DNA from: Nitrososphaerota archaeon
GTDB lineage: Archaea > Thermoproteota > Nitrososphaeria > Nitrososphaerales > Nitrosopumilaceae
Length of the DNA stretch: 38,635 nucleotides
NCBI GenBank assembly: GCA_021325615.1
Contig: JAJPGU010000026.1
Coordinates: 1-38,635 of the forward strand
Direction: 5' to 3'
The position numbers and the translations under genes were made by a program. Shown here one piece after another: positions 4,908 to 37,825 of this stretch. Below the pieces are notes generated by a model. The model was given only the letters and a program-made list of their open reading frames with translations, did not search any database and was not told where the DNA came from. Positions within the stretch are counted from its first letter, which is position 1. Each line of letters opens with the position of its first letter.

Positions 4908-7900
4908 TTATTTTCTGTCTTGGTGGTGGTCCCTTTCATCAGGGTTCCCTACATGCCATCCATCGTGCGGGGGTGGCAGGTTCGAGTTTTCCACCTCTAC
5001 GTCCCCCTGGGTCACAGGTCCCGGATTGGAGTAGGTCTGCGTTCCCGACTTGTTGAAGACTTCTATCTGGAAGACGTCAGGCAGGGGGCTCTTGTCAGCC
5101 CTGTCCTGCACCGTCACTGAAAATGTAAAGCCTCCTGTCCCGTTCACCTTTGCTTGGCCCGTGAAGGTTGCCGATCCGTCCGTGTTGGCAGAAAGGGTCA
5201 GTATCGTGGTGCTCTGCAGATCAATCTTTGCAGACTGGTCGTGGTACTGCAGTCTTCCCTCCAAGTTGCCGTTCCTGTCCCGGACAGATTGTACGTCAAA
5301 TTCAAAAGTCTTGCCCTTTCCTACAGACCCGTGGCCATGGGTCGACGCAACATGATAGTCGATATGGTTTGACGACCCAAGCGGGAACCCGTAGTCGAGA
5401 TTGACTACCGAGTCCTTCTCCACGTGAATATCAGATGCAATGAATGCGCCGACTGCCGTAGCGCCCTGGTCAAGGTGGATTTCCTTCAGCGAATAGACGT
5501 TTGCATATATGATTGATGATCTTCCAATATGCACTTGCTGTCCCACATAGAACAAAATCTTGGATGCATCAATGTTCGAAGTGCCCGAGTTTATTGAAAC
5601 TCCCTTTCCTCCCTCCATCGCATCCCCGACGTGGATTGTAGTGGGGCCGTCAAATACCAGTGATGCGTTGTTGCCAATTGTCAGCGAGTCAAGCGTGTAG
5701 TTGCCGCCTGCAAACTCAAGTGTCGCCCGTGCTCCCACCTTCACGTTTCCATAGGTCAGGGGTCCTGCCGGCAATGCCATTGTACCGGAGCTGTGCACGG
5801 ATACGTCCTTTGCGCCGCTGACGTGCGTTGCAGGGAAGAATGCAGGCAGTGAGACATAGAACGAGGAGGTCTTGTTTGGTGCTTCCATCGAGGTTCCCTC
5901 GTTGTGCAGGGTCCTAAAGTAGAAGGCCTGGTAAACCGTTGCGTTTTCCTCAATGTGCACGTTTGTGCCTACAATTCCAGAGTTTGGAAGCCTCGAGTTT
6001 TCCTCGATGTGGATCTCGCCGTTTACCGGCTCCTCTCCCACATTTCCGCAGTTCACCTTGCCCGAATCCTCAAGGTGAACTCCCCGTATTCCGAACATTA
6101 CGTAGCTTCCAATCATTCGTATATTTTCAGGACTTGGTGTCTGGCTGCACGATTCAAGTTGTACTACAGGCGTTACTGCCGATGCAGGCGGTGATGAAAG
6201 CGGTGACGTTCCGCCGGAGTTTGTCGCAACTATCTCGTAATAGTAGGTCGTTGACGACGCAAGTCCGGTATCGACAAACGTGGTGGTAGCGGAAGTTCCA
6301 GCCCTGAGGTTGAATGGTCCTGAGGGGCTGGTGGAGCGGTATATGGTATATGACGTTGCGTTTGCAGAGGCCGTCCATGTCACCGTAATCGAGTTTGCAG
6401 ATGTGGCGTTGGCCGTCACGGATGCGGGCGAGGCAGGTGGAAGCGGAAGGGTTGTAGCCGATGCCGGGGGTGTCGATAATGCAGATGTGCCGCCTGCGTC
6501 CGATGCGGTAATCTCATAATAGTACGTGGTGGCAGGCACAAGCCCGGTATCGTTGAATGCAGGCGATGCCGAGGTTCCAACCTGCGTTGTGAATGGGCCT
6601 GAGGCTGTGGAAGCGCGGTATACGGTATATGACGTTGCGTTTACGGACGCAGTCCAGGATACGGCAATTGATGTTGACGACTTGGTGGTTGCGGTCACCG
6701 AGGCTGGCGCGGCAGGCGGGGGAGGCGGGGCGGTCAGGGTGGTGGCAGATGCCGGCGGTGATGAAAGTGCGGAGGATCCTCCGGGGTTTGTTGCGGCAAC
6801 CTCGTAATAGTAGGTGGTCGATTGCGCAAGGCCCGTGTTGTTAAAGGTTGTAGCGGATGAAGTTCCTGCCTCCACGTTGAACGGCCCCGAGGGGCTGGTG
6901 GAGCGGTATATTACATATGACGTTGCCCCCGGTGCCGCGGCCCACGTCACCGTAATCGAGGTAGTCGACGTGGCATTTGCGCTCACCGATGTCGGCGTGG
7001 AAGGCGGAAGCGGGAAGGTGGTTGCGTTAACAGGCGGCGTTGAAGGAGGCGACGTTCCGCCGGTGTTTGTAGCAGTTATTTCATAATAGTACGTGGTGGC
7101 AGGCACAAGCCCGGTATCGTTGAATGCAGGCGATGCCGAGGTTCCAACCTGCGTTGTGAATGGGCCTGAGGCTGTGGAAGCGCGGAAAATGGCATATGAC
7201 ACTGCGCGTGCCGAGGCAGACCATGATACAGTAATTGAAGTTGATGATGTGGTGGTCGCAGTTACGGATACCGGCGTTGGCGGCGGAAGAGGCGGTGTAG
7301 TTGCTGATGCAGGGGGTATCGAGAGCCCCGATGATCCGCCCGGCCCGTTTGCGGAAACCTCGTAGTAGTATGTGGTGGCAGGTGATACCGCAGTATCGTT
7401 AAGTGTGGTGGATGTCGTAGTGCCTGCAAGGATGTTAAAGAGTGCGGATGCGCTCAGTGCGCGGTAAACCTTGTACACGTTTGCCCCAACTGATGCCGCC
7501 CATGAAACGGTAATTGATGTAGGCGAGGTTGCAGTAGCTGTCACGGAGATTGGCGCAACCGGCGGCATGGGCACCACGGGGGTTGCCTCGTTTGAAAATC
7601 CCGACTGGCCCGACGGGCTTGTCGCGCTCACCTCGTAATAGGTCTTGGTGTTGGGAGGGTTGTCGGTAAATGTTGTTGCGGAGGTGGTCCCTGCAATCGT
7701 GCTGAACGGCCCTCCTGCCGATGGCGAGCTGTATATGGTATATGACGTTGCCCCGGCTGACGCATTCCATGTGAGAATGACATTCTGCGGAGGCGAGAGG
7801 GTAGCGACGAGGTTTGTTGGAGCAGGCGGCGGGCTTCCTCCCGGTGCAAAGTTGTAAACCGAAATGTTGTTGAAGTTGGTATCCGTCACGTACACGTTTC

Positions 7901-8798
7901 CTGACGAGTCAAGGGCAACATCGGCGGGGGCGTTAAACTGTCCCGGGCTGAAACTTGGCGACGCGGTAAAGGACCCAAAGACCGTGATGAAGGTGCCGTT
8001 GCCATAGAATTTCTCGACCCTGCCGTTTGTAAGGTCCGTCACAAGGATCTTGCCCGCAGGGTCCACTGCAACTCCCTGCGGGTTGGAAAACTGTCCTGTT
8101 CCCACGCCCGGGCTGCCAAAGCTTAGGACATAGCTTCCCGCGCTGTTAAACTCTACAATGCGATAATTAGGGGGGTCGCTCACGTAGATATTTCCAGTGG
8201 AAGGATCCACTGCAACATCTGCCGGCTGGAAATGCTTTGTACCGGTCGAGGTCGTAAACGACGTCAGAAAGTTGCCAGTCCCGTCAAACTTGTCTATCCT
8301 GCCGTTGCCGCTGTCACCGACGTAGACATTTCCTGACGAATCAACCGCAATCCCTACCGGATATGATATGTTTCCCGAGCCAAAGGTCCTGACAAAGTTT
8401 CCGCTGCTGTCAAACTGTACGACCCTGCCGTTGTTGTTGTCTGTCACATAAAACCCAGACGATGTGACTGCGACATCCTGAGGGCTGCTAAACGAGTCCC
8501 CGCTGTTAAAGCTGGAAATTATGGTCGCGTTAGTCCCGCCCGGGTTGAAGATTACCACCCTGTTGTCCCCAGTGTCCGCCACTATGACATTTCCATTCGG
8601 ATCCACCGCTAGGCCCTGGGGCACGTTAAGGGTTTCCGGGCTTGGCGCGACAAGCGAGCCATCAATGTCCCTTACATAGGTATACGTGTCTGCAAACGCC
8701 GGGGAAAACTGATACGCCGCGATAAACAGGAGCCCGAGAAGAACCAGTGCAGGGATGTATAGTCTCAAGTCTAAGCTACGCCCAGCCATCAGTGCCAT
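4908..8798 (-). CDS. Exported NHL-propeller / six-FnIII / beta-helix surface protein
   Basis: This 1296-residue exported protein starts with a signal peptide or anchor (hydrophobic about 13-33, then FADTY). Residues about 50-315 contain six NHL repeats (GLAVDPNGNVIVADTGDNRV pattern), which would close a six-bladed beta-propeller. About 322-878 are six fibronectin type III domains, each with a TYYYEV/I strand and an Ala/Thr/Pro-rich linker. About 885-1140 is a glycine-poor beta-helix-like stretch (repeated HIEEN, HLE, TIGNN turns) resembling polymer-forming surface domains. The C-terminal 1150-1270 resembles the module that follows choice-of-anchor regions in bacterial surface proteins. The protein is likely a cell-surface adhesin or matrix scaffold; the ligand is unknown. 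An ATTAATAGG box is centred 28 bases before the ATG at 8798. A second ATG three codons in (8789) is possible. Confidence 0.85.
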   Translation of the reverse strand: MALMAGRSLDLRLYIPALVLLGLLFIAAYQFSPAFADTYTYVRDIDGSLVAPSPETLNVPQGLAVDPNGNVIVADTGDNRVVIFNPGGTNATIISSFNSGDSFSSPQDVAVTSSGFYVTDNNNGRVVQFDSSGNFVRTFGSGNISYPVGIAVDSSGNVYVGDSGNGRIDKFDGTGNFLTSFTTSTGTKHFQPADVAVDPSTGNIYVSDPPNYRIVEFNSAGSYVLSFGSPGVGTGQFSNPQGVAVDPAGKILVTDLTNGRVEKFYGNGTFITVFGSFTASPSFSPGQFNAPADVALDSSGNVYVTDTNFNNISVYNFAPGGSPPPAPTNLVATLSPPQNVILTWNASAGATSYTIYSSPSAGGPFSTIAGTTSATTFTDNPPNTKTYYEVSATSPSGQSGFSNEATPVVPMPPVAPISVTATATSPTSITVSWAASVGANVYKVYRALSASALFNILAGTTTSTTLNDTAVSPATTYYYEVSANGPGGSSGLSIPPASATTPPLPPPTPVSVTATTTSSTSITVSWSASARAVSYAIFRASTASGPFTTQVGTSASPAFNDTGLVPATTYYYEITATNTGGTSPPSTPPVNATTFPLPPSTPTSVSANATSTTSITVTWAAAPGATSYVIYRSTSPSGPFNVEAGTSSATTFNNTGLAQSTTYYYEVAATNPGGSSALSSPPASATTLTAPPPPPAAPASVTATTKSSTSIAVSWTASVNATSYTVYRASTASGPFTTQVGTSASPAFNDTGLVPATTYYYEITASDAGGTSALSTPPASATTLPLPPASPASVTANATSANSITVTWTASANATSYTIYRSTSPSGPFNLRAGTSATTTFVDTGLASSTTYYYEIVATNSGGTSPLSSPPASAVTPVVQLESCSQTPSPENIRMIGSYVMFGIRGVHLEDSGKVNCGNVGEEPVNGEIHIEENSRLPNSGIVGTNVHIEENATVYQAFYFRTLHNEGTSMEAPNKTSSFYVSLPAFFPATHVSGAKDVSVHSSGTMALPAGPLTYGNVKVGARATLEFAGGNYTLDSLTIGNNASLVFDGPTTIHVGDAMEGGKGVSINSGTSNIDASKILFYVGQQVHIGRSSIIYANVYSLKEIHLDQGATAVGAFIASDIHVEKDSVVNLDYGFPLGSSNHIDYHVASTHGHGSVGKGKTFEFDVQSVRDRNGNLEGRLQYHDQSAKIDLQSTTILTLSANTDGSATFTGQAKVNGTGGFTFSVTVQDRADKSPLPDVFQIEVFNKSGTQTYSNPGPVTQGDVEVENSNLPPPHDGWHVGNPDERDHHQDRK
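6514..6618 (-). repeat. 105-bp exact repeat, copy in FnIII domain 5
   Basis: Bases 6514-6618 are identical to 7081-7185, 567 bases away, while sequence on both sides diverges. The tract encodes the same stretch of two FnIII domains (third and fifth), which points to recent gene conversion within the gene. Confidence 0.9.
7081..7185 (-). repeat. 105-bp exact repeat, copy in FnIII domain 3
   Basis: Partner of the identical tract at 6514-6618. Two FnIII domains lie between equivalent points of the copies, so recombination between them would delete or add a two-domain unit. Confidence 0.9.
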
Positions 8799-10324: not shown

Positions 10325-10936
10325 ATGAATCATCTAAAAACCGTGGGACTGTTAGGCATCGTAGCCATAGCAGTCGGCATGGTCGGGATTAACGAGGTCA
10401 GCGCAAACCCTCTAGGGGTAGCCGACAACGCCAAATCCAATTCAGGTGAAAAGTCGACGTTTCTTGGCCACATCATCGTGACCGTAAGAGACCCAGAAGG
10501 CCACATCAAGGCATACAGGCAGACCGACAACATAGTAACTGCGATAGGCCACAACTGTGCCGCAAACCTGCTCTTCGGAACAGCATTTGCAAACTGCACA
10601 GGACCGGCAGCATTCCAGTATATTGCCCTCACCAACGCCACATTCACTCCAGCTGCTGGCGACACCTCGATTACAAACGAGCAGTCCAACGGCGGAATGC
10701 AGCGACAGGCGGGGACCATCTCTGCTGCCCAGGTAGCAACAAGTGGTACTAATGCCGCAATCGCACAGATTGCAAAGACATTCACATACACTGGGACGAA
10801 CTCCAGAACCGTATCAGGTTCAGGACTGTTTGACGCCTCTAGTGCAGGTAACATGTTTGCAGACCACACCTTCAGCACTGTCACCCTGAACACAAACGAC
10901 CAACTGACAGTCCAATGGCAAATAACACTTAGTTAG
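10325..10936 (+). CDS. Small exported protein with virion-protein-like domain
   Basis: This 203-residue protein has an N-terminal signal peptide (hydrophobic 7-22, then NEVSANP) and one domain. The domain starts GHIIVTVRDPEGHIKAYRQTDN and continues with GHNCAANLLFG, FQYIALTNATFTPAAGDTSI, RQAGTIS, SGLFDA and LNTNDQLTVQWQITLS. The order of these motifs (an ialg-like strand, a TxitnE turn, RqagtiS, GlFda, ntnDqLtVqWxI) recalls tail or head-surface proteins of tailed phages, where this kind of domain ends in a similar strand. The export signal argues for a role on the cell surface rather than in a provirus, and no other virus genes are near. The function is unknown. An AT-rich ATATCTAATAATG stretch lies about 26 bases before the ATG. 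Confidence 0.7.
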   Translation: MNHLKTVGLLGIVAIAVGMVGINEVSANPLGVADNAKSNSGEKSTFLGHIIVTVRDPEGHIKAYRQTDNIVTAIGHNCAANLLFGTAFANCTGPAAFQYIALTNATFTPAAGDTSITNEQSNGGMQRQAGTISAAQVATSGTNAAIAQIAKTFTYTGTNSRTVSGSGLFDASSAGNMFADHTFSTVTLNTNDQLTVQWQITLS

Positions 10937-11825: not shown

Positions 11826-12467
11826 CTACTCGTATGTTGATTGTGACGATACGCCGGAGGGTGATGGAACTGATGGGAATCTGTCGCCAATCTGCTGTTC
11901 TGCAACTGCTGATGCCTCCTGAAGTATCTTCTCGGTCTCCTCGTTTGATACGTCCGAGTCCACGTTGAAGTCTCCTCCTGCAAGAGAGTCCATCATCAGG
12001 CCGTTGAGTGTCTGGGTCATTGCGTTCAGCTCGGAATCCGCCTCTGGCATGAACCTTCCGAGGGATGATTTGAGTCCCTTCATGGTTGACATTGCTGGAG
12101 CGATTGCTACCATTGCGTCTCCTAGGTCGTGTATTGTCGTCAGGCGCAATTGTACTTGCTCTAGTGCCATTCGTGCGTTTCCTAGCATCTTTGTGACCTT
12201 TCGTATCTCAGCAAGCTCGTTTGACAGAACCCTGCTGGTGCTTGCATCGTGCTGCTGCATTGCGGCTACGATTCGCTTGAAAAGCTGTTCATCTCTTTGT
12301 CTCAGCTTTGTCAGCATAGCGTCCATCTTCGATATCTGACCCTGTAACTTGTTCACAGCGCCCTCAATCCTTGGCTTGAGTGCTCCCTGTGGTTTTACAG
12401 TTTCACGTAGTTTTTCGGTTATACCTACAGACTCAGGACGAGTCCAGGTCTTATCGAAGCCGGTCAT
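11826..12467 (-). CDS. cdvB: CdvB-type ESCRT-III cell-division protein
   Basis: This 213-residue protein of the Snf7/ESCRT-III class forms filaments at the division site in Thaumarchaeota and Sulfolobales together with CdvA and the AAA ATPase CdvC/Vps4. Residues about 20-150 are long, charged helices (KLQGQISKMDAMLTKLRQRDEQLFKRI and ELAEIRKVTKMLGNARMALEQVQLRL), typical of the basic ESCRT-III core. The C-terminal part (about 150-213) is acidic and Ser-rich, with a GxxNVDSDVSNEETEKILQEA helix that would correspond to the regulatory alpha5 region. No winged-helix extension is visible, so this resembles the shorter paralogues (CdvB1/B2-like) rather than the longest CdvB. cdvA and cdvC are not in the window. 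A CAATTAAG box centred 27 bases upstream supports the ATG. Confidence 0.9.
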   Translation of the reverse strand: MTGFDKTWTRPESVGITEKLRETVKPQGALKPRIEGAVNKLQGQISKMDAMLTKLRQRDEQLFKRIVAAMQQHDASTSRVLSNELAEIRKVTKMLGNARMALEQVQLRLTTIHDLGDAMVAIAPAMSTMKGLKSSLGRFMPEADSELNAMTQTLNGLMMDSLAGGDFNVDSDVSNEETEKILQEASAVAEQQIGDRFPSVPSPSGVSSQSTYE

Positions 12468-12490: not shown

Positions 12491-12498
12491 CTTAATTG
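12491..12498 (-). promoter_or_regulatory. TATA-like box of cdvB
   Basis: The minus strand reads CAATTAAG, centred about 27 bases before ATG 12467. A second AT stretch (TTTAAA at 12478-12483) is too close to the start to act as the box. Confidence 0.45.
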
Positions 12499-12570: not shown

Positions 12571-13323
12571 GTGGCAAAAATCGCAGTCTTTGACTCCGGC
12601 CTGGGATCCCTTTCCGTAATTTGGCCCATCCAGAAGAGGTTCAGGTCGGACATGGTCTACTTTGCAGACCAGGCTTCCTACCCATATGGCACCAAGTCTC
12701 CCCGGGAGCTCCGAAAAATAATCGCCTCTACAATTGACATGCTGGAGGACCGGTTCGGCCCGGATCTCATAGTGGTAGCCTCCAACACCCCTTCGTTACT
12801 GCTTGAACCGGACAAGGGCAGGAAAGTTTTGGGCGTGTATCCTCCACTTGAAGAGGCATCAAAACGGAGCAGGACAAGGAAGATTGCGGTACTTGCAACA
12901 AGGTCGGTCATCAAAAGCCCCAGGCTTTCCGCCTACATCAGGAGGCATGCACCACCCGCCACCAAGGTTTTCAGGGTGGATGCCACGCCGCTTGTAGACC
13001 TGGTAGAGTCTGGCAGGTTCATCACGGAAAAGAAATCCAGCATAAAAAAGATAGTAAAAATTTTGCATCCGGTATTCTCCAAGGGCGTGGACGTTGCTAC
13101 ACTTTCGAGCACGCACCTTCCCTTCCTCCTTCCGCTGCTCAGGAAATCATTTCCCGCCGTGACGTTCCTTGACCCCGCAGACTCGGTTGCAGCCAGGGTC
13201 GCGGGTCTTTTGAAAAAGCAGGAACGGCGAAACAGGATCCGGATTTATGCGTCGGGGGATGCAAAGGCCTTTGAGAAAAAACTCCAAAGGGTCGGGATCA
13301 GGCGCAGGGTGTCACTTTTGTGA
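12571..13323 (+). CDS. Glutamate-racemase homologue with both catalytic Cys replaced by Ser
   Basis: The 250-residue fold and motif order match MurI/glutamate racemase: FDSGLGSLSV (7-16), YFADQASYPYG (30-40), a VASNTPS segment (69-75) and an SSTHLP segment (179-184). In true glutamate racemases the last two are xCNTA and GCTHYP and supply the two cysteines that act as acid/base pair. Here both positions are serine (Ser71 and Ser180), read directly from TCC and AGC codons. Asp8, Ser9, Asn72, Thr73 and His182 are kept, so the substrate pocket may persist without racemase chemistry. Archaea have no murein, so a role in D-glutamate supply is not expected. It may bind or act on an amino or keto acid. 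A longer reading from 12496 is less likely. The last 12 bases overlap the convergent cbiF stop. Confidence 0.8.
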   Translation: MAKIAVFDSGLGSLSVIWPIQKRFRSDMVYFADQASYPYGTKSPRELRKIIASTIDMLEDRFGPDLIVVASNTPSLLLEPDKGRKVLGVYPPLEEASKRSRTRKIAVLATRSVIKSPRLSAYIRRHAPPATKVFRVDATPLVDLVESGRFITEKKSSIKKIVKILHPVFSKGVDVATLSSTHLPFLLPLLRKSFPAVTFLDPADSVAARVAGLLKKQERRNRIRIYASGDAKAFEKKLQRVGIRRRVSLL

Positions 13324-14085
13324 TATCGCCTTTGCCTTCCTGTACCCGTGGCTGAAGGTCTTGTCGTAAAGCCTCGAGTATTCGTACTGCTTTGGGTTAA
13401 CAATGTCCCCGATTATGATGATTGCAGTCTTGGTGATCTTCTCGTCCCGGATTTTTTTTGCAATGTCCCCAAGCGTCCCGGTAACAATCTTCTCGTCGGT
13501 CCAGCTTGCACGGTATACCGCGGCAGCAGGCGTGGACTTGGGATAGCCCCCCTCTATTGCCTGCTTGACAATGTCTGATACCAGGTGAACGCTGAGGTAG
13601 AATATCATCGTGGCCTTGTGCTTTGCAAGCTCGGAAATCTTTTCCCGTTTTGGGACCTTTGTCCTTGACTCGGCCCTTGTCACTATGATTGTCTGAGTCA
13701 CGCCAGGCAGCGTAAGCTCGCACCCAAGCGCCGCAGCCGACGCAAGAAACGAGGTTATGCCCGGCACCACCTCGTACTCTATGCCTTCCTTCTTGAGGTT
13801 GTCAGTCTGCTCCCTGATCGCGCCGTAAATTGACGGGTCGCCGTCATGAAGCCTTACCACAAGCTTTCCCGCAAGTGCCCCGTCCCGCAGGACTTCGAAG
13901 ATCTCCTCGCGTACAAGCTTTGCAGCGTCATAGAGCTTTGCCTTCTTGCACATCTTGACAATCGCGGGCGGAATCAGCGATCCCGAATAGACAACGATAT
14001 CCGCCTTTTCAATAAGCTTCTTTGCCTTTACCGTGATGAGATCCGGGTCTCCCGGGCCGCAGCCCACAAAGTATACCTTAGCCAC
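13312..14085 (-). CDS. cbiF: Precorrin-4/cobalt-precorrin-4 C11-methyltransferase
   Basis: This 257-residue SAM-dependent tetrapyrrole methylase transfers a methyl group to C11 of (cobalt-)precorrin-4 in corrin ring synthesis. The N-terminal VYFVGCGPGDPDLITVKA is the family P-loop-like motif, and it is followed by DIVVYSGSLIPPAIV, which marks the CbiF/CobM branch. Further family motifs are VVRLHDGDPSIYGAIREQ and YEVVPGITSFLASAAALG. It is the last gene of a minus-strand run with cbiT and cbiL and overlaps the cbiL stop by 8 bases, so translation is probably coupled. Its 3' end overlaps the racemase homologue by 12 bases. Confidence 0.93.
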   Translation of the reverse strand: MAKVYFVGCGPGDPDLITVKAKKLIEKADIVVYSGSLIPPAIVKMCKKAKLYDAAKLVREEIFEVLRDGALAGKLVVRLHDGDPSIYGAIREQTDNLKKEGIEYEVVPGITSFLASAAALGCELTLPGVTQTIIVTRAESRTKVPKREKISELAKHKATMIFYLSVHLVSDIVKQAIEGGYPKSTPAAAVYRASWTDEKIVTGTLGDIAKKIRDEKITKTAIIIIGDIVNPKQYEYSRLYDKTFSHGYRKAKAISQK

Positions 14086-14800
14086 GCTTTACCACCATTA
14101 TCGAAAAGTACTTGCTTGTCAGGGTGTCCTTTGTTACCTCGCCAAGTGTCAGCTTCTTCACAATCTCCTCGTTTGTCCCGACATCCTGGGCTATCGCAAA
14201 AAGTGAGCTGTCAGGGAATCCCGCCTCCCTTAGGAGCGATATTACCTGGTCAAAATACCTGCCGTCCTTGAGAAATATCATGGTGTCGCAGTTCTTCGCA
14301 GTCTCCTTAACCCTCGAAAGGTCATAGCAAGCAGGAATTACAGCCACCGTCTCATCCCCCTCTGCTATGCTTATTCCCACCTTGGAGGCAAACGCAAACA
14401 TGGAAACTATGCCAGGCACCACCGTTATCTTGATCTCAGGATACTTTGACCGCAGTTCCCGCTGCAGGTAGATCCATGTGCTGTAAAGCGACGGGTCTCC
14501 GACCGTAAGATATACCACGTTCTTCCCGCTCCTCACCTTTTCGGCTATCGTGCGCGCGTTGGCCTGCCAGGTGTTTTCAAGGGTCTCCCTGTCCTTGACC
14601 ATCGGGAAGACAAGGTTCTCGACATCGGGTTTTTTTGACTTGTCGACAAGCGACGAAATGATAGAGTAGGCGATGCTTTCCTTTCCCTCCTTGGAGGTGG
14701 GGCACATGATTACGTCGGCGTTCTGGATTGCCCTTACCGCCTTGACCGTCAGGAGGTCTGGATCGCCCGGGCCGCAGCCCACGCATGTCAGCTCTGCCAT
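14078..14800 (-). CDS. cbiL: Precorrin-2/cobalt-precorrin-2 C20-methyltransferase
   Basis: The 240-residue protein is a second SAM-dependent tetrapyrrole methylase: TCVGCGPGDPDLLTVKAVRAI at the N-terminus, then VYLTVGDPSLYSTWIYL and ITVVPGIVSMFAFASKVG. MCPTSKEGKESIAYSI after the first motif is characteristic of the C20 enzyme CbiL/CobI, which methylates (cobalt-)precorrin-2. The N-terminus resembles that of CbiF, and the two are old paralogues. A TTTAATTAGG stretch overlapping the cbiT stop lies 26 bases before the ATG, so an internal promoter could add to read-through from cbiT. The gap to cbiT is 26 bases. Confidence 0.93.
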   Translation of the reverse strand: MAELTCVGCGPGDPDLLTVKAVRAIQNADVIMCPTSKEGKESIAYSIISSLVDKSKKPDVENLVFPMVKDRETLENTWQANARTIAEKVRSGKNVVYLTVGDPSLYSTWIYLQRELRSKYPEIKITVVPGIVSMFAFASKVGISIAEGDETVAVIPACYDLSRVKETAKNCDTMIFLKDGRYFDQVISLLREAGFPDSSLFAIAQDVGTNEEIVKKLTLGEVTKDTLTSKYFSIMVVKRG

Positions 14801-14821
14801 TTGAAGAAAAGCTCCACGGCA

Positions 14822-14831
14822 CCTAATTAAA
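14822..14831 (-). promoter_or_regulatory. Possible internal promoter box for cbiL-cbiF
   Basis: The minus strand reads TTTAATTAGG across the cbiT stop codon, centred about 26 bases before the cbiL ATG. Confidence 0.4.
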
Positions 14832-15423
14832 GGTTAGATTTTTGTGCGGAAATTATTGTGACGGGATTTCGAGCAAGCATCATGGTGCCCGTCGATGTCT
14901 TGCGGCTTTTTGATATCGTGACTTGGGTGATGTCGACCGATGCGAACTGCAGCCCTTCGATCGTTGAAAGTACGGAGTAAAGGGTCTCGATCAAGATAGT
15001 TCCGATCACTATCCTACCTCCCGCCTTCAGCTTGCCCTCGCAGAGTTTCAGAATGTCGGCAGTCTCCCCTCCCGTCCCGCCGACGAAGATGGCGTCGGCC
15101 TGTGGGAGATCAGAAATTTTTTCAAGCGCGTTTCCAAGAATGACGTTTACATTCGGTGTGCCGAATTTTTCGAGGTTCTTTTTTGTAAGCTCCACCGCCT
15201 TGGGATCAACGTCTATTGCAAAGACCTTGCCAAGCGGCCCAATCTGGTACGCCGCCTCTATAGACACAGACCCGCTTCCGCACCCTATGTCGTATACAAT
15301 TTGGCCGTCGCACAGCCTTGCCTTGCTTATCTGGATTACCCTTGCCTCCTCCTTTGTGATGGGGACATCCTCTACCCTGTCAAAATATTCGTCAGGGATT
15401 CCCGGCGTCTTGTGTTTCCACAT
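14827..15423 (-). CDS. cbiT: Cobalt-precorrin-6B/7 C15-methyltransferase (decarboxylating) subunit CbiT
   Basis: This 198-residue class I SAM methyltransferase is the stand-alone archaeal counterpart of the C-terminal half of CobL; it methylates C15 and removes the C12 acetate carboxyl of the corrin intermediate. TPGIPDEYFDRVEDVPITKEEARV is the typical CbiT opening. DIGCGSGSVSIEAA is SAM motif I, IDVDPKAVELTKKN carries the acidic ribose-binding residue, and FVGGTGGETADIL is a later conserved turn. It is the first gene of the cbiT-cbiL-cbiF group. A CTAAATAG box sits 27 bases before its ATG, so its mRNA is probably leaderless. Confidence 0.93.
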   Translation of the reverse strand: MWKHKTPGIPDEYFDRVEDVPITKEEARVIQISKARLCDGQIVYDIGCGSGSVSIEAAYQIGPLGKVFAIDVDPKAVELTKKNLEKFGTPNVNVILGNALEKISDLPQADAIFVGGTGGETADILKLCEGKLKAGGRIVIGTILIETLYSVLSTIEGLQFASVDITQVTISKSRKTSTGTMMLARNPVTIISAQKSNL

Positions 15424-19054: not shown

Positions 19055-19432
19055 GATCTTTCCCTCTAGCGCGTCTACCACTATTTTCTGGCCGTCCCGC
19101 AGCGACTCGTAGTCCTTTCTTTCTGCCACGACAAGCGGTATGTTGGAAATGGCACATCCGGAGGCTGTTGTGATGTCGGCGTGCAGGCAGACCATCGCAA
19201 GCGGCGCGGCCTTGTTGTACATCAGCGAGTATATTGTGTATGCCCCCACGCTGCTTCCCACGCCGTTTGGAAACACGAGGATCTTGTCGCCAAGAAACTT
19301 GCCAAAAAGGTCATGCTTTTCGTCCCGCACCCTGCCGGTCTTTTTGTCAATCCCTCCCAGGAAGTTTATCGGGTGCCGGGCGCAGAGGACGGCCCCCTCG
19401 GCCCTCCCACGCACTATGACCTTTACGTTCAT
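19049..19432 (-). CDS. Phosphomevalonate dehydratase (aconitase X) small subunit
   Basis: This 127-residue swivelling domain of aconitase X (DUF126 family) pairs with the large subunit encoded just upstream. Conserved parts are the VIVRGRAEGAVLC opening, INFLGGIDKKTGRV, GDKILVFPNGVGSSVGAYTIYSL and GCAISNIPLVV. In archaea this complex dehydrates mevalonate 5-phosphate to trans-anhydromevalonate 5-phosphate in the modified mevalonate pathway to isoprenoid lipids. The ATG overlaps the stop of the large subunit by four bases (ATGA), so subunits are made in equal amounts. The next pathway enzyme (a UbiD-type decarboxylase) is not in the window. Confidence 0.9.
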   Translation of the reverse strand: MNVKVIVRGRAEGAVLCARHPINFLGGIDKKTGRVRDEKHDLFGKFLGDKILVFPNGVGSSVGAYTIYSLMYNKAAPLAMVCLHADITTASGCAISNIPLVVAERKDYESLRDGQKIVVDALEGKIL

Positions 19433-20583
19433 GCCGTCTCCTCCTCGACAATCTGCTTGAGGCTCTTGAGGCTGACGCCAACCCCGTTGGATGTCCTGAG
19501 GTAGTATGCCCCCTTGACGCTGTTTGTAATTACCGAGTCCACGTCCTCCTTGTCTACAAGTGGCGTAAGGCAGGTGCAGCAGTCATAGAGTATCTCGCCG
19601 CCTGCCCTTGTAAGCTCCTTTGTGTACCCAAGGTCGCGCATCTGGCCCTGGATGGCGCGCGGGCAGAAGATCATGCAGCGCTTCCGAAAGGACCTGCCCT
19701 TGAGCCTAGACGCAAGATCAGAGATTTCCTCAAGCCCAAGCTGCGGGCTGCCAAGGGTGATAATGTCGCCAGACTCGGCCGTGTTCAGTTCGTCCCTGAC
19801 AGATGCAAGCTCCTTCCTGTCAAAATCAACCTTCTCGCCCTCGCCCTCGCCAAGTGTGAACATGCCGCAGCTTCCAGAGGTCCCCATCCCTGCGCAGAGC
19901 GACTTGCAGCTGCGCCTGTCAAGGCCCTTTGAACCGGATATCGCAACGGAGCTGTCGGCCACCTTGCCTGCAAAATATCCCAAGAGCCCGTAGGCAAGCT
20001 CGTCTGCAGGCTCGGCCTTCATCCTGATTGTCAGCTTGGGCTTCCTGTTCTCCTCCTCGCGAAGGTCCGAATGGGGCGACTTGCCGGTCAGGGCGCTGGC
20101 AAGGGCGCTGAACGCGCTCTCCTTGTTGGTCTTGAGCGAGGAGACAGAGTTTGCGTAAATTGCCGCATTGCTCTCTGCAAAGGAAACCTGAGTCCCGCCC
20201 TTTGGCATCTCGAAAATCTCGTAGGGTATGCAGGAAAAGGACGGGATGGCCCCCATCTTTTCATACGATTTTCTGATGCTCTGCTGCTTTTGTATGAATT
20301 CCTCGTCAAGGCCAAACCTTGACACGCTGTCAGAATCAAACCCCATGGGGTTTACCGTTGTCTTGATCTTGAATTTGGCGTCCTGGCTTAGGTGCGAGAG
20401 GAACTGCTCCCCCGCGTCGCCAATCGTGTTATAGTTTACTCCCGAGAGGTGCGCCCACTCTACTGGAATCAGTTTGTCGGCCCCCGTTGCCTTGCCTATT
20501 GCAACAAGGATCCTGTAGGCCATGGCAAGCGTCTCGCCCTGCTTTCCATCAAGTGCAGCCTCCTCCTCCTTTGTTAGCTCCAA
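19429..20583 (-). CDS. Phosphomevalonate dehydratase (aconitase X) large subunit
   Basis: The catalytic subunit (DUF521 family) has 384 residues from the TTG at 20583. ELTKEEEAALDGKQGE is the normal family start, which is why this TTG is chosen over an ATG at 20634 that would add 17 atypical residues. Other family segments are WAHLSGVNYNTIGDAGEQFL near 45-65, GKSPHSDLREEENRKP, SGSCGMFTLGEGE with an Fe-S type cysteine, and YDCCTCLTPL near the C-terminus. The active site is thought to hold a [4Fe-4S] cluster bound by three cysteines. A TATTATATC box centred about 26 bases before the TTG supports a leaderless mRNA; the same AT tract faces nth on the other strand. Confidence 0.88.
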   Translation of the reverse strand: MELTKEEEAALDGKQGETLAMAYRILVAIGKATGADKLIPVEWAHLSGVNYNTIGDAGEQFLSHLSQDAKFKIKTTVNPMGFDSDSVSRFGLDEEFIQKQQSIRKSYEKMGAIPSFSCIPYEIFEMPKGGTQVSFAESNAAIYANSVSSLKTNKESAFSALASALTGKSPHSDLREEENRKPKLTIRMKAEPADELAYGLLGYFAGKVADSSVAISGSKGLDRRSCKSLCAGMGTSGSCGMFTLGEGEGEKVDFDRKELASVRDELNTAESGDIITLGSPQLGLEEISDLASRLKGRSFRKRCMIFCPRAIQGQMRDLGYTKELTRAGGEILYDCCTCLTPLVDKEDVDSVITNSVKGAYYLRTSNGVGVSLKSLKQIVEEETA

Positions 20584-20605
20584 TGCCGTACCTTTCTTGG
20601 AACAG

Positions 20606-20614
20606 ATATAATAC
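20606..20614. promoter_or_regulatory. Bidirectional TATA tract shared by nth and the dehydratase operon
   Basis: The plus strand reads ATATAATAC, about 28 bases before the nth TTG at 20638. The minus strand reads GTATTATAT, about 26 bases before the dehydratase TTG at 20583. Both spacings suit leaderless starts, so one AT tract may serve both directions. Confidence 0.55.
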
Positions 20615-20637
20615 TTGTGTGCTGCATATGACATCGT

Positions 20638-35461: not shown

Positions 35462-37825
35462 TTGAGAAATACAGCCTTTATTCTTGTCGTTATCGCACTT
35501 TCCATCTTACTCGGGTTCCAGCAGGCCGAGGCGGCTACAATCACCGCCACCCCAAAAACCCAGGCCTTTGGCCCAAATGACTGGATAGTTGTCTACCTCA
35601 AGGTCCAGGGATACCACGGCGGTCCGATCTCGTGGATTGCGCACAGGCCTGACAACTCGACGCTTTCGGGCAACCTTACCACGGTCAAGTCAGACGGCAC
35701 CGCCCTCCAGCAGATCATCCGCACCGCGTTTGACAACATGTTTGGAAACTGGTCCATCACCTACAAGTACGACAATTCCACCCAGAATGCCACCTTTGAG
35801 GTAAAACCAATCGTACTCTCCGTCTACACGGACAAGAACCTGTATTACGAGCCCGACGTCATGCACCTTAACATCACGACGTCATACTACGTACCAGTAG
35901 CAAACCGAGCCGAGTTTTTCCACCTCAACTTTTATGACCAAAAGGGGAACCTCCTCACTGACATACCCACCATAGACATCAGGGCCTTTGAGCCCAGCGT
36001 CATCTACAATTTCCACATGCTCCCGCTTGCAGACTACCACCCGCCAGGCCTTTACAAGATAAGGGTCCAGTACTACAACACGGTAACTGAGGTCCCGTTC
36101 CTTGTGGGCAAGTTCTCAGAGTTTTTGCTGCTCGCCTCGCATACTGACAAGAGCACCTACCAGACCGGCGACGTGGTAAACATGGGGATTTCCGTAACCA
36201 GGGTTACCCAGTCATCAGGAACGCTAAAGATAACCGATCCCTCGGGCAACTCCACCACCCGCCAGTTCGAAGTCTCCTCAACGCACACGTCCCTGAGCCT
36301 CAGCGGGATTGCCACCAAGGCTGGGACCTACAACTATCTGATACAGTACGGCGGGATAACAGGCACCGGTTCTTTCAACGTGGTGCCAAACCAGGCGAGC
36401 CTGCCAAAGATACAGTTTGGGATATTTCCCGACAAGATGTACTACAGGCCGGGCGAGATAATTCATGTGAAAGCCCTGGTGTCCCAGTCCGTTGCAAACT
36501 CCACCACCATCTGGTCGGTGGACCCAAACGGCGTTGAATATCCAAGAAAGACCCTGCCGTTTGCAGGCCTTGACACCATACTCCCGCACCAGATAGCGGC
36601 AAACGCGCCTACCGGACAGTGGGAGCTCTACGTGGACTATGCGGGCCTTGTCCGGAGCGTACGGTTCGTAGTGGTTGGCGCGCCCGTCGACCCAAGCGAG
36701 CTGCTAAGCGTCAACCAGTTCACCGCCCCTTCCTTTTACTCGTACTTTGCCAAAGGGCTTGACGAGCCCAGCGGAATCGCGATAGACTCTGACAACGATG
36801 TCTACGTCGTGGACTCGGGCAATTCCCTTATCAAGAAATTCGACCCCACAGGCAAGCTCCTCCTTTCATGGGGCGGAATGGGTACTGCGAACGGCAGGTT
36901 CATCCACCCAAGCGGCATAGCAGTAGGAAGCAAGTACGTCTTTGTTGCTGATACCGGTAACGCAAGGATCCAGATGTTTGACAAGGACGGCAACTTCATC
37001 TACCAGTGGGGAGGATATGGGGATTCCCAGGGAATGTTCCATGTACCGGTCGGCCTTGCGCTTGACAGCGGCGGGTTTTTGTTTGTGGCAGATGCGGACA
37101 GGCCGACAATCCAGATTTTCAACTCGCAGGACGTGTATACGGACGAGATCAAGCCTCTCCTCACGCCAGAGGGGAATTTCCCGGCGCTGGACGGGATAGC
37201 GTTTGGCCCGGACGGCAGCTTTTACGTCTCCTCGCCGGACGACAGGGTATTGAGGTTCTCAGACATCGGCCACTTTGTGAACTTTTACGGCTCGGCAGGG
37301 AGCGAGGACGGGAGGTTGAACGGCCCGACAGCTCTGGCAGTTGACGGCAGCGGAAACCTGTATGTTGCGGACACTGGCAACTACAGGATCCAAAAGTTCG
37401 ACTCCCGCGGCAACTTCCTTGCAAGCTGGGGTTCGCAGGGAGTCCTGCCGGGGCAGTTTGAGGATCCCTCAGGAATAGCGGTAGACTCTGCAGGAAACGT
37501 CTATGTTGCAGACAAGGCCACCAATACGGTACAAAAGTTTTCGGTGCGCGGGGGCACGGTCCCTGCCATACCGGACTGGGTAAGGGAAAGGGCCCTGTGG
37601 TGGGCGGAGGGCGCCCTAGACAAGAGCCAGTTTGTCCTTGCGGTAAAATACATGGTGAACCTGGGCCTTGTCAACGTAACGCAATCAAACGCCAGTGCGG
37701 GCGTTACAAATGTGCCTCACTGGCTAAGGCATGACGCCAGGTGGTGGGCAGAGGGCCAGATAGATGACAAGACGTTTGCAGAATGCATCGAGGATCTTAT
37801 CTCAGCCGGGATCCTGAGGCTCTAG
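35462..37825 (+). CDS. Exported NHL-propeller protein with MG-like domains and paired WWAEG repeats
   Basis: This 787-residue exported protein starts with TTG, followed by a signal peptide (NTAFILVVIALSILLGF...AEAA). Residues about 25-410 hold three or four Ig-like/macroglobulin-like domains, three with a DKxxYxPGD/E turn. About 430-700 contain six NHL repeats (PSGIAIDSDNDVYVVDSGN pattern), a complete propeller. The C-terminal 90 residues carry two copies of a helical module: IPDWVRERALWWAEGALDKSQF and VPHWLRHDARWWAEGQIDDKTF, each followed by a short helix. This module is frequent at the ends of thaumarchaeal exported proteins and probably links them to the cell envelope. The ligand is unknown. 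Its TAG stop shares CTAG with the stop of the small membrane gene on the other strand. Confidence 0.87.
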   Translation: MRNTAFILVVIALSILLGFQQAEAATITATPKTQAFGPNDWIVVYLKVQGYHGGPISWIAHRPDNSTLSGNLTTVKSDGTALQQIIRTAFDNMFGNWSITYKYDNSTQNATFEVKPIVLSVYTDKNLYYEPDVMHLNITTSYYVPVANRAEFFHLNFYDQKGNLLTDIPTIDIRAFEPSVIYNFHMLPLADYHPPGLYKIRVQYYNTVTEVPFLVGKFSEFLLLASHTDKSTYQTGDVVNMGISVTRVTQSSGTLKITDPSGNSTTRQFEVSSTHTSLSLSGIATKAGTYNYLIQYGGITGTGSFNVVPNQASLPKIQFGIFPDKMYYRPGEIIHVKALVSQSVANSTTIWSVDPNGVEYPRKTLPFAGLDTILPHQIAANAPTGQWELYVDYAGLVRSVRFVVVGAPVDPSELLSVNQFTAPSFYSYFAKGLDEPSGIAIDSDNDVYVVDSGNSLIKKFDPTGKLLLSWGGMGTANGRFIHPSGIAVGSKYVFVADTGNARIQMFDKDGNFIYQWGGYGDSQGMFHVPVGLALDSGGFLFVADADRPTIQIFNSQDVYTDEIKPLLTPEGNFPALDGIAFGPDGSFYVSSPDDRVLRFSDIGHFVNFYGSAGSEDGRLNGPTALAVDGSGNLYVADTGNYRIQKFDSRGNFLASWGSQGVLPGQFEDPSGIAVDSAGNVYVADKATNTVQKFSVRGGTVPAIPDWVRERALWWAEGALDKSQFVLAVKYMVNLGLVNVTQSNASAGVTNVPHWLRHDARWWAEGQIDDKTFAECIEDLISAGILRL

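Follow-up and report, generated by a model that had tools for sequence, protein, structure and literature searches.

The MurI glutamate racemases work through a catalytic pair of cysteines that act as acid and base. In OpaE, a member of the same superfamily, Cys-to-Ser substitution at both sites leaves at most 0.3% activity (PMC12661438), and the C197S variant of EcL-DER displays no racemase activity (PMC12838360). A 2025 mSystems paper (PMC12363236) described glutamate racemase, annotated as K01776, throughout the ammonia-oxidizing archaea. There, the N. maritimus protein was said to have the necessary catalytic sites, D-glutamate use was proposed in the deep sea, and 32–72% of the sediment racemase pool was ascribed to ammonia-oxidizing archaea. 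The occurrence of a racemase-like protein in these archaea is already known; what is added here is that both catalytic positions are fixed as serine. Our literature search of open-licence papers found no mention of the two serines.

We analyzed a contig stretch of 38,635 nucleotides from a member of the Nitrosopumilaceae (the window), which encodes the protein under study (Table 1). All 250 residues are free of cysteine, and the protein therefore lacks even the single catalytic Cys retained in arylmalonate decarboxylase-type enzymes. The translation shows FDSGLG (residues 7–12), PYG (38–40), VASNTPS with Ser71, LSSTHLP with Ser180, and His182, and so confirms the motifs that a sequence-only reading had picked out. 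In alignment with Bacillus subtilis RacE, Ser71, Asn72, and Thr73 correspond to Cys74, Asn75, and Thr76, while Ser180, Thr181, and His182 correspond to Cys185, Thr186, and His187. A same-frame TTG extension to position 12496 finds no backing among orthologues.

Table 1. Features of the Ser/Ser gene, its protein, and its neighbors (window positions, unless a locus is named)
Feature	Position	Strand	Remarks
CdvB1/B2-type ESCRT-III cell-division gene	11826..12467	-	Divergent from Ser/Ser gene; most stable neighbor
Ser/Ser glutamate-racemase-fold gene	12571..13323	+	250 aa, GTG start
Asp8-Ser9-Gly10 (= RacE Asp10-Ser11)	12592..12600	+	Asp8 invariant in 135 rows; Ser9 replaced by Ala in two bacterial members
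Pro38-Tyr39-Gly40 substrate loop	12682..12690	+	Invariant
Ser71-Asn72-Thr73, replacing catalytic Cys-Asn-Thr	12781..12789	+	Ser71 codon TCN clade-wide
Glu146 (aligned with RacE Glu153)	13006..13008	+	Invariant
Ser180-Thr181-His182, replacing catalytic Cys-Thr-His	13108..13116	+	Ser180 codon AGY clade-wide
CbiF-CbiL-CbiT cobalamin genes	13312..15423	-	Convergent with Ser/Ser gene, 12-bp overlap; synteny only
Orphan HyuA gene	L034:4404-7385	-	Further loci L030, L281, L284, L292-L298

The best family match of the window protein is glutamate racemase (TIGR00067, 2e-28), and its closest solved relatives are MurI proteins throughout. Its score of 99.4 bits, like the 117.8 bits of the orthologue from genome G103, which we take to be Nitrosopumilus maritimus SCM1, falls below the curated equivalog cut-off of 146.65 bits; two members from family f8 score above it. 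The broader Asp/Glu racemase superfamily model, PF01177, is matched at 33.5 bits against a cut-off of 31. An AlphaFold2 model built with 21 orthologues as input reached a pLDDT of 91.6, and the top Foldseek matches of this model in the PDB are all glutamate racemases (TM 0.83–0.89). Judged from the predicted model, the window protein is a MurI-fold member in a peptidoglycan-free archaeon. It has the complete MurI substrate-contact set (Asp-Ser, PYG, Asn-Thr, Thr-His, and Glu), parts of which are missing in families f2 and f3, one f8 genus, and the bacterial members described below. Across the entire clade, by contrast, the catalytic cysteine pair of MurI is replaced by an invariant Ser71 and Ser180. 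A TIGR00067 search of the window genome for a second racemase matched this gene alone, and a TIGR00035 search matched nothing; the PF01177 search of the whole genome missed even the Ser/Ser gene and is hence uninformative on further racemases.

These data bear directly on whether the protein is a genuine, perhaps slow, Ser-based glutamate racemase that serves archaeal D-glutamate use, which is how PMC12363236 reads it. The family match, the structural resemblance to 2GZM (found by Foldseek and also in PMC12363236), and the retention of most substrate-contact residues speak for this reading, yet the two residues expected to perform the chemistry do not. The G103 protein (row L210) has neither catalytic cysteine, and the published claim of a full set of catalytic sites thus disagrees with the residues in our alignment. 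In addition, both the window and G103 proteins score under the equivalog cut-off, and Cys-to-Ser changes abolish or strongly lower the activity of related enzymes. From those mutants of other superfamily members, we infer that two-thiol glutamate racemase activity has been lost. In L. fermenti MurI, changing one Cys to Ser reportedly leaves some activity, so there is room for a slow racemase. Overall, we regard a working glutamate racemase as improbable, and the Ser/Ser protein is probably something other than the D-glutamate-making enzyme named in databases and in the 2025 paper.

Of 61 near relatives, 34 have an orthologue; across the class, the figure is 181 of 300 genomes, with a frequency that falls steeply beyond the ammonia-oxidizing families. 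The sequence-only reading had proposed aligning these homologues and held that Cys/Cys in sister genomes would point to a strain-specific or sequencing change. Every distinct orthologue row that exceeded 200 bits and covered both sites was Ser/Ser (133 of 133, 131 of them archaeal), including the G103 orthologue; the pair is conserved in every ammonia-oxidizing archaeal family sampled, and no Cys/Cys sister was found. Because all orthologues agree, sequencing error, a strain-specific change, and chance are ruled out. The codon is TCN at site 71 and AGY at site 180 in every row. Each class lies one base from Cys (TGY), and no silent one-step exchange connects the two, so their constancy at each site fits a single ancestral origin. 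Elsewhere in the phylum, a relative from a different family (G450; L161/L191) encodes a true, above-cut-off MurI with Cys/Cys and the motif ACHT, in which His takes the place of Asn after the first Cys.

Among 135 Ser/Ser rows, pairwise identity averages approximately 51% and drops to 26%. Even so, 22 columns are conserved at 98.5% or higher, and both serines are conserved at 100%, as are Asp8, Gly10, Gly12, Ser13, Tyr30, Asp33, Pro38-Tyr39-Gly40, Glu146, Leu178, Thr181, and His182. The pocket residues Ser9, Asn72, Thr73, and Thr110 are near-invariant. Fixation of both serines, together with so many near-invariant columns at this level of identity, points to selection instead of decay, as the sequence-only reading had suggested, and we read the proteins as an old, selected, non-canonical MurI subfamily.

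Gene loss does occur. The gene is frameshifted in the complete genome G127 (L194), whose pseudogene can still be read to contain SNTPS and SSTHLP, and broken in the near-complete genome G122 (L195) and in G036; in the complete genome G140 (L238), it has been deleted from between CdvB and CbiF. Among Nitrosotalea relatives, several apparent absences reflect the end of a contig and not a loss. Since a few genomes have only a pseudogene or no copy, the function is dispensable. The same broken copies and deletion might suggest a horizontally acquired MurI that persists as a decaying relic, but the losses are isolated, and most genomes of four families carry an intact gene whose active site is invariant. 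We assign this explanation a next-to-negligible probability; as a general account, it is refuted by 22 columns that stay near-invariant despite a mean identity of 51%.

Plasmid records yielded Ser/Ser proteins from at least two bacteria, Phyllobacterium zundukense (with the motifs FDAG, ASNAPS, and LSSTHLPW) and Fusobacterium vincentii, and a search of viral contigs for relatives returned none. In a maximum-likelihood tree, the archaeal and bacterial Ser/Ser proteins form one clade apart from every Cys/Cys MurI, with support of 100/99 for the full alignment and 98/95 when both catalytic motifs were masked. Convergent loss of the cysteines in archaea and bacteria is disfavored by the masked-motif support and by the identical codon class at each site. 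In Fusobacterium, a standard Cys/Cys MurI is encoded on the same record as the Ser/Ser protein, so Ser/Ser is not simply what becomes of MurI where peptidoglycan is absent. The suggestion that Ser/Ser is tied to murein-free organisms consequently holds for the peptidoglycan-free archaeal host but fails for Fusobacterium and Phyllobacterium.

What the pocket now does can be framed as a choice between catalysis and binding; the sequence-only reading had named binding, or a one-base lyase/decarboxylase-type reaction, as candidate roles. With both proton-transfer thiols missing, the two-domain racemase fold kept in the predicted model, and the corresponding superfamily mutants near-dead, the protein could be a pseudo-racemase that performs no chemistry and whose pocket serves to sense or buffer a metabolite resembling glutamate, or to make contact with another protein. 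Pocket conservation alone would also fit a pure binding role. However, serine at both positions in 100% of archaeal and bacterial members, alongside retained Asp8, Glu146, and His182, exceeds the needs of binding, and the protein lacks both a regulator domain and a consistent partner. We consider a binding-only role doubtful and favor an enzyme with a Ser-based center over a mere binding protein.

The Asp/Glu-racemase pocket is largely kept, together with the Asp, Glu, and His residues that aid proton transfer, but has Ser at both proton-transfer positions. In the proposed mechanism, the two serines would form the working center of an enzyme, as suggested by their stricter conservation relative to Ser9, Asn72, and Thr73. 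Ser180-His182-Glu146 would line one face and Asp8-Ser71 the other, acting as weak acid/base or nucleophile. The substrate may be a glutamate-like dicarboxylate, or a lactam or derivative thereof; the actual reaction is a guess. Families f2 and f3, like one f8 genus, have Ile instead of Asn72, and the bacterial members lack Ser9 and Thr73, so a ligand other than glutamate is conceivable. In lineages with an adjacent gene for HyuA, an orphan oxoprolinase-like ATPase, the product might feed that ATPase or the protein might serve it. For this Ser/Ser branch, which is old and distinct within the MurI fold and shared by most ammonia-oxidizing archaea and a few bacteria, we see about an even chance that its serines are the center of an enzyme acting on a glutamate-like ligand and that the protein serves HyuA where the two are adjacent. 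Somewhat less probable is the more specific proposal of a separate enzyme family, hidden under the 'glutamate racemase' label, in which the racemase pocket, with a Ser180-His182-Glu146/Asp8-Ser71 center, would have been turned to a non-racemizing conversion of a metabolite resembling glutamate or a lactam.

The connection to HyuA comes from Nitrososphaeraceae. By Pfam assignment, the next gene downstream of the Ser/Ser gene, in the same orientation, is an orphan hydantoinase/oxoprolinase-A (HyuA) gene in at least 10 genomes from four genera. HyuB was sought in 16 archaeal genomes and found in none. The window genome lacks HyuA, as do many others that encode the Ser/Ser protein, which rules it out as an obligate partner. 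The adjacency is the only functional lead, not proof, and would point to a glutamate-, lactam-, or hydantoin-type substrate. On plasmids, orphan HyuA genes have citrate-type transporters and FAD oxidoreductases among their neighbors, with no annotated racemase. In some Nitrososphaeraceae, a PRPP synthase gene lies near the Ser/Ser gene, and in Phyllobacterium one lies 2 kb from it; this is probably a coincidence.

The remaining neighborhood is less informative. Nitrosopumilaceae share the order UDG-CdvB-Ser/Ser gene-CbiF-CbiL-CbiT, which f2, f3, and some of f8 retain in part and which might suggest a cobalamin- or cell-division-linked factor positioned between CbiF-L-T and a CdvB paralogue. 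This block, however, is broadly syntenic and belongs to a longer conserved gene order with unrelated genes; the Cbi genes are apart from it in some genomes, and both the CdvB and Cbi neighbors are missing in many Nitrososphaeraceae. Moreover, G127 and G140, in which the Ser/Ser gene is broken or missing, still hold CbiF, CbiL, and CdvB. General synteny and the persistence of these neighbors mean that the CdvB-Cbi context says little. We therefore dropped a cobalamin role inferred from neighbors as general synteny and consider a factor linked to either process very improbable.

Elsewhere in the window, positions 19429-20634 (-) encode a member of the Aconitase X family (406 bits), and several related genomes have relatives of it within the same block. 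Positions 10325-10936 (+) give a weak, above-cut-off match to the podophage fibre family Gp80, and further ammonia-oxidizing archaea have relatives of this protein close to the corresponding locus. Positions 4908-8798 (-) encode an exported protein of 1296 residues with NHL-like and repeated fibronectin-like domains, and the NHL-like repeats of a 787-residue protein at 35462-37825 (+) resemble, by eye only, those of the exported protein.

The distinction from a racemase carries consequences beyond this locus. If the protein is not a racemase, the inference of D-glutamate use falls, and some of the D-amino-acid genes counted in the environment are misassigned. A group of global importance would then have a widely conserved gene whose reaction differs from its label. 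The published 'GLUR' (N. maritimus A9A551, PMC12363236) apparently belongs to the same orthologous group, and its reported distribution agrees with ours; it was treated as a working racemase, whereas the orthologues examined here have Ser at both catalytic residues.

Compared with MurI/RacE (TIGR00067, PF01177), the window protein shares the fold (TM up to 0.89), the DSG, PYG, N-T, and T-H motifs, and the conserved Asp, Glu, and His. It differs in reading SNTPS for CNTAS and SSTHLP for GCTHYP, with Ser for both catalytic Cys, in a score below the TIGR00067 cut-off, and in belonging to a separate clade. The homologues from Phyllobacterium (WP_262291953.1, annotated 'Asp/Glu racemase') and Fusobacterium vincentii resemble the archaeal proteins in the Ser/Ser pair, P74-S75, STHLP, and clade membership, but have Asp-Ala-Gly for DSG and Ser-Asn-Ala for SNT, with no HyuA, CdvB, or Cbi neighbors seen. 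Arylmalonate decarboxylase, EcL-DER, and RacX are likewise superfamily members with an altered cysteine pair, in which one Cys is replaced; each keeps at least one catalytic Cys, whereas the Ser/Ser protein keeps neither.
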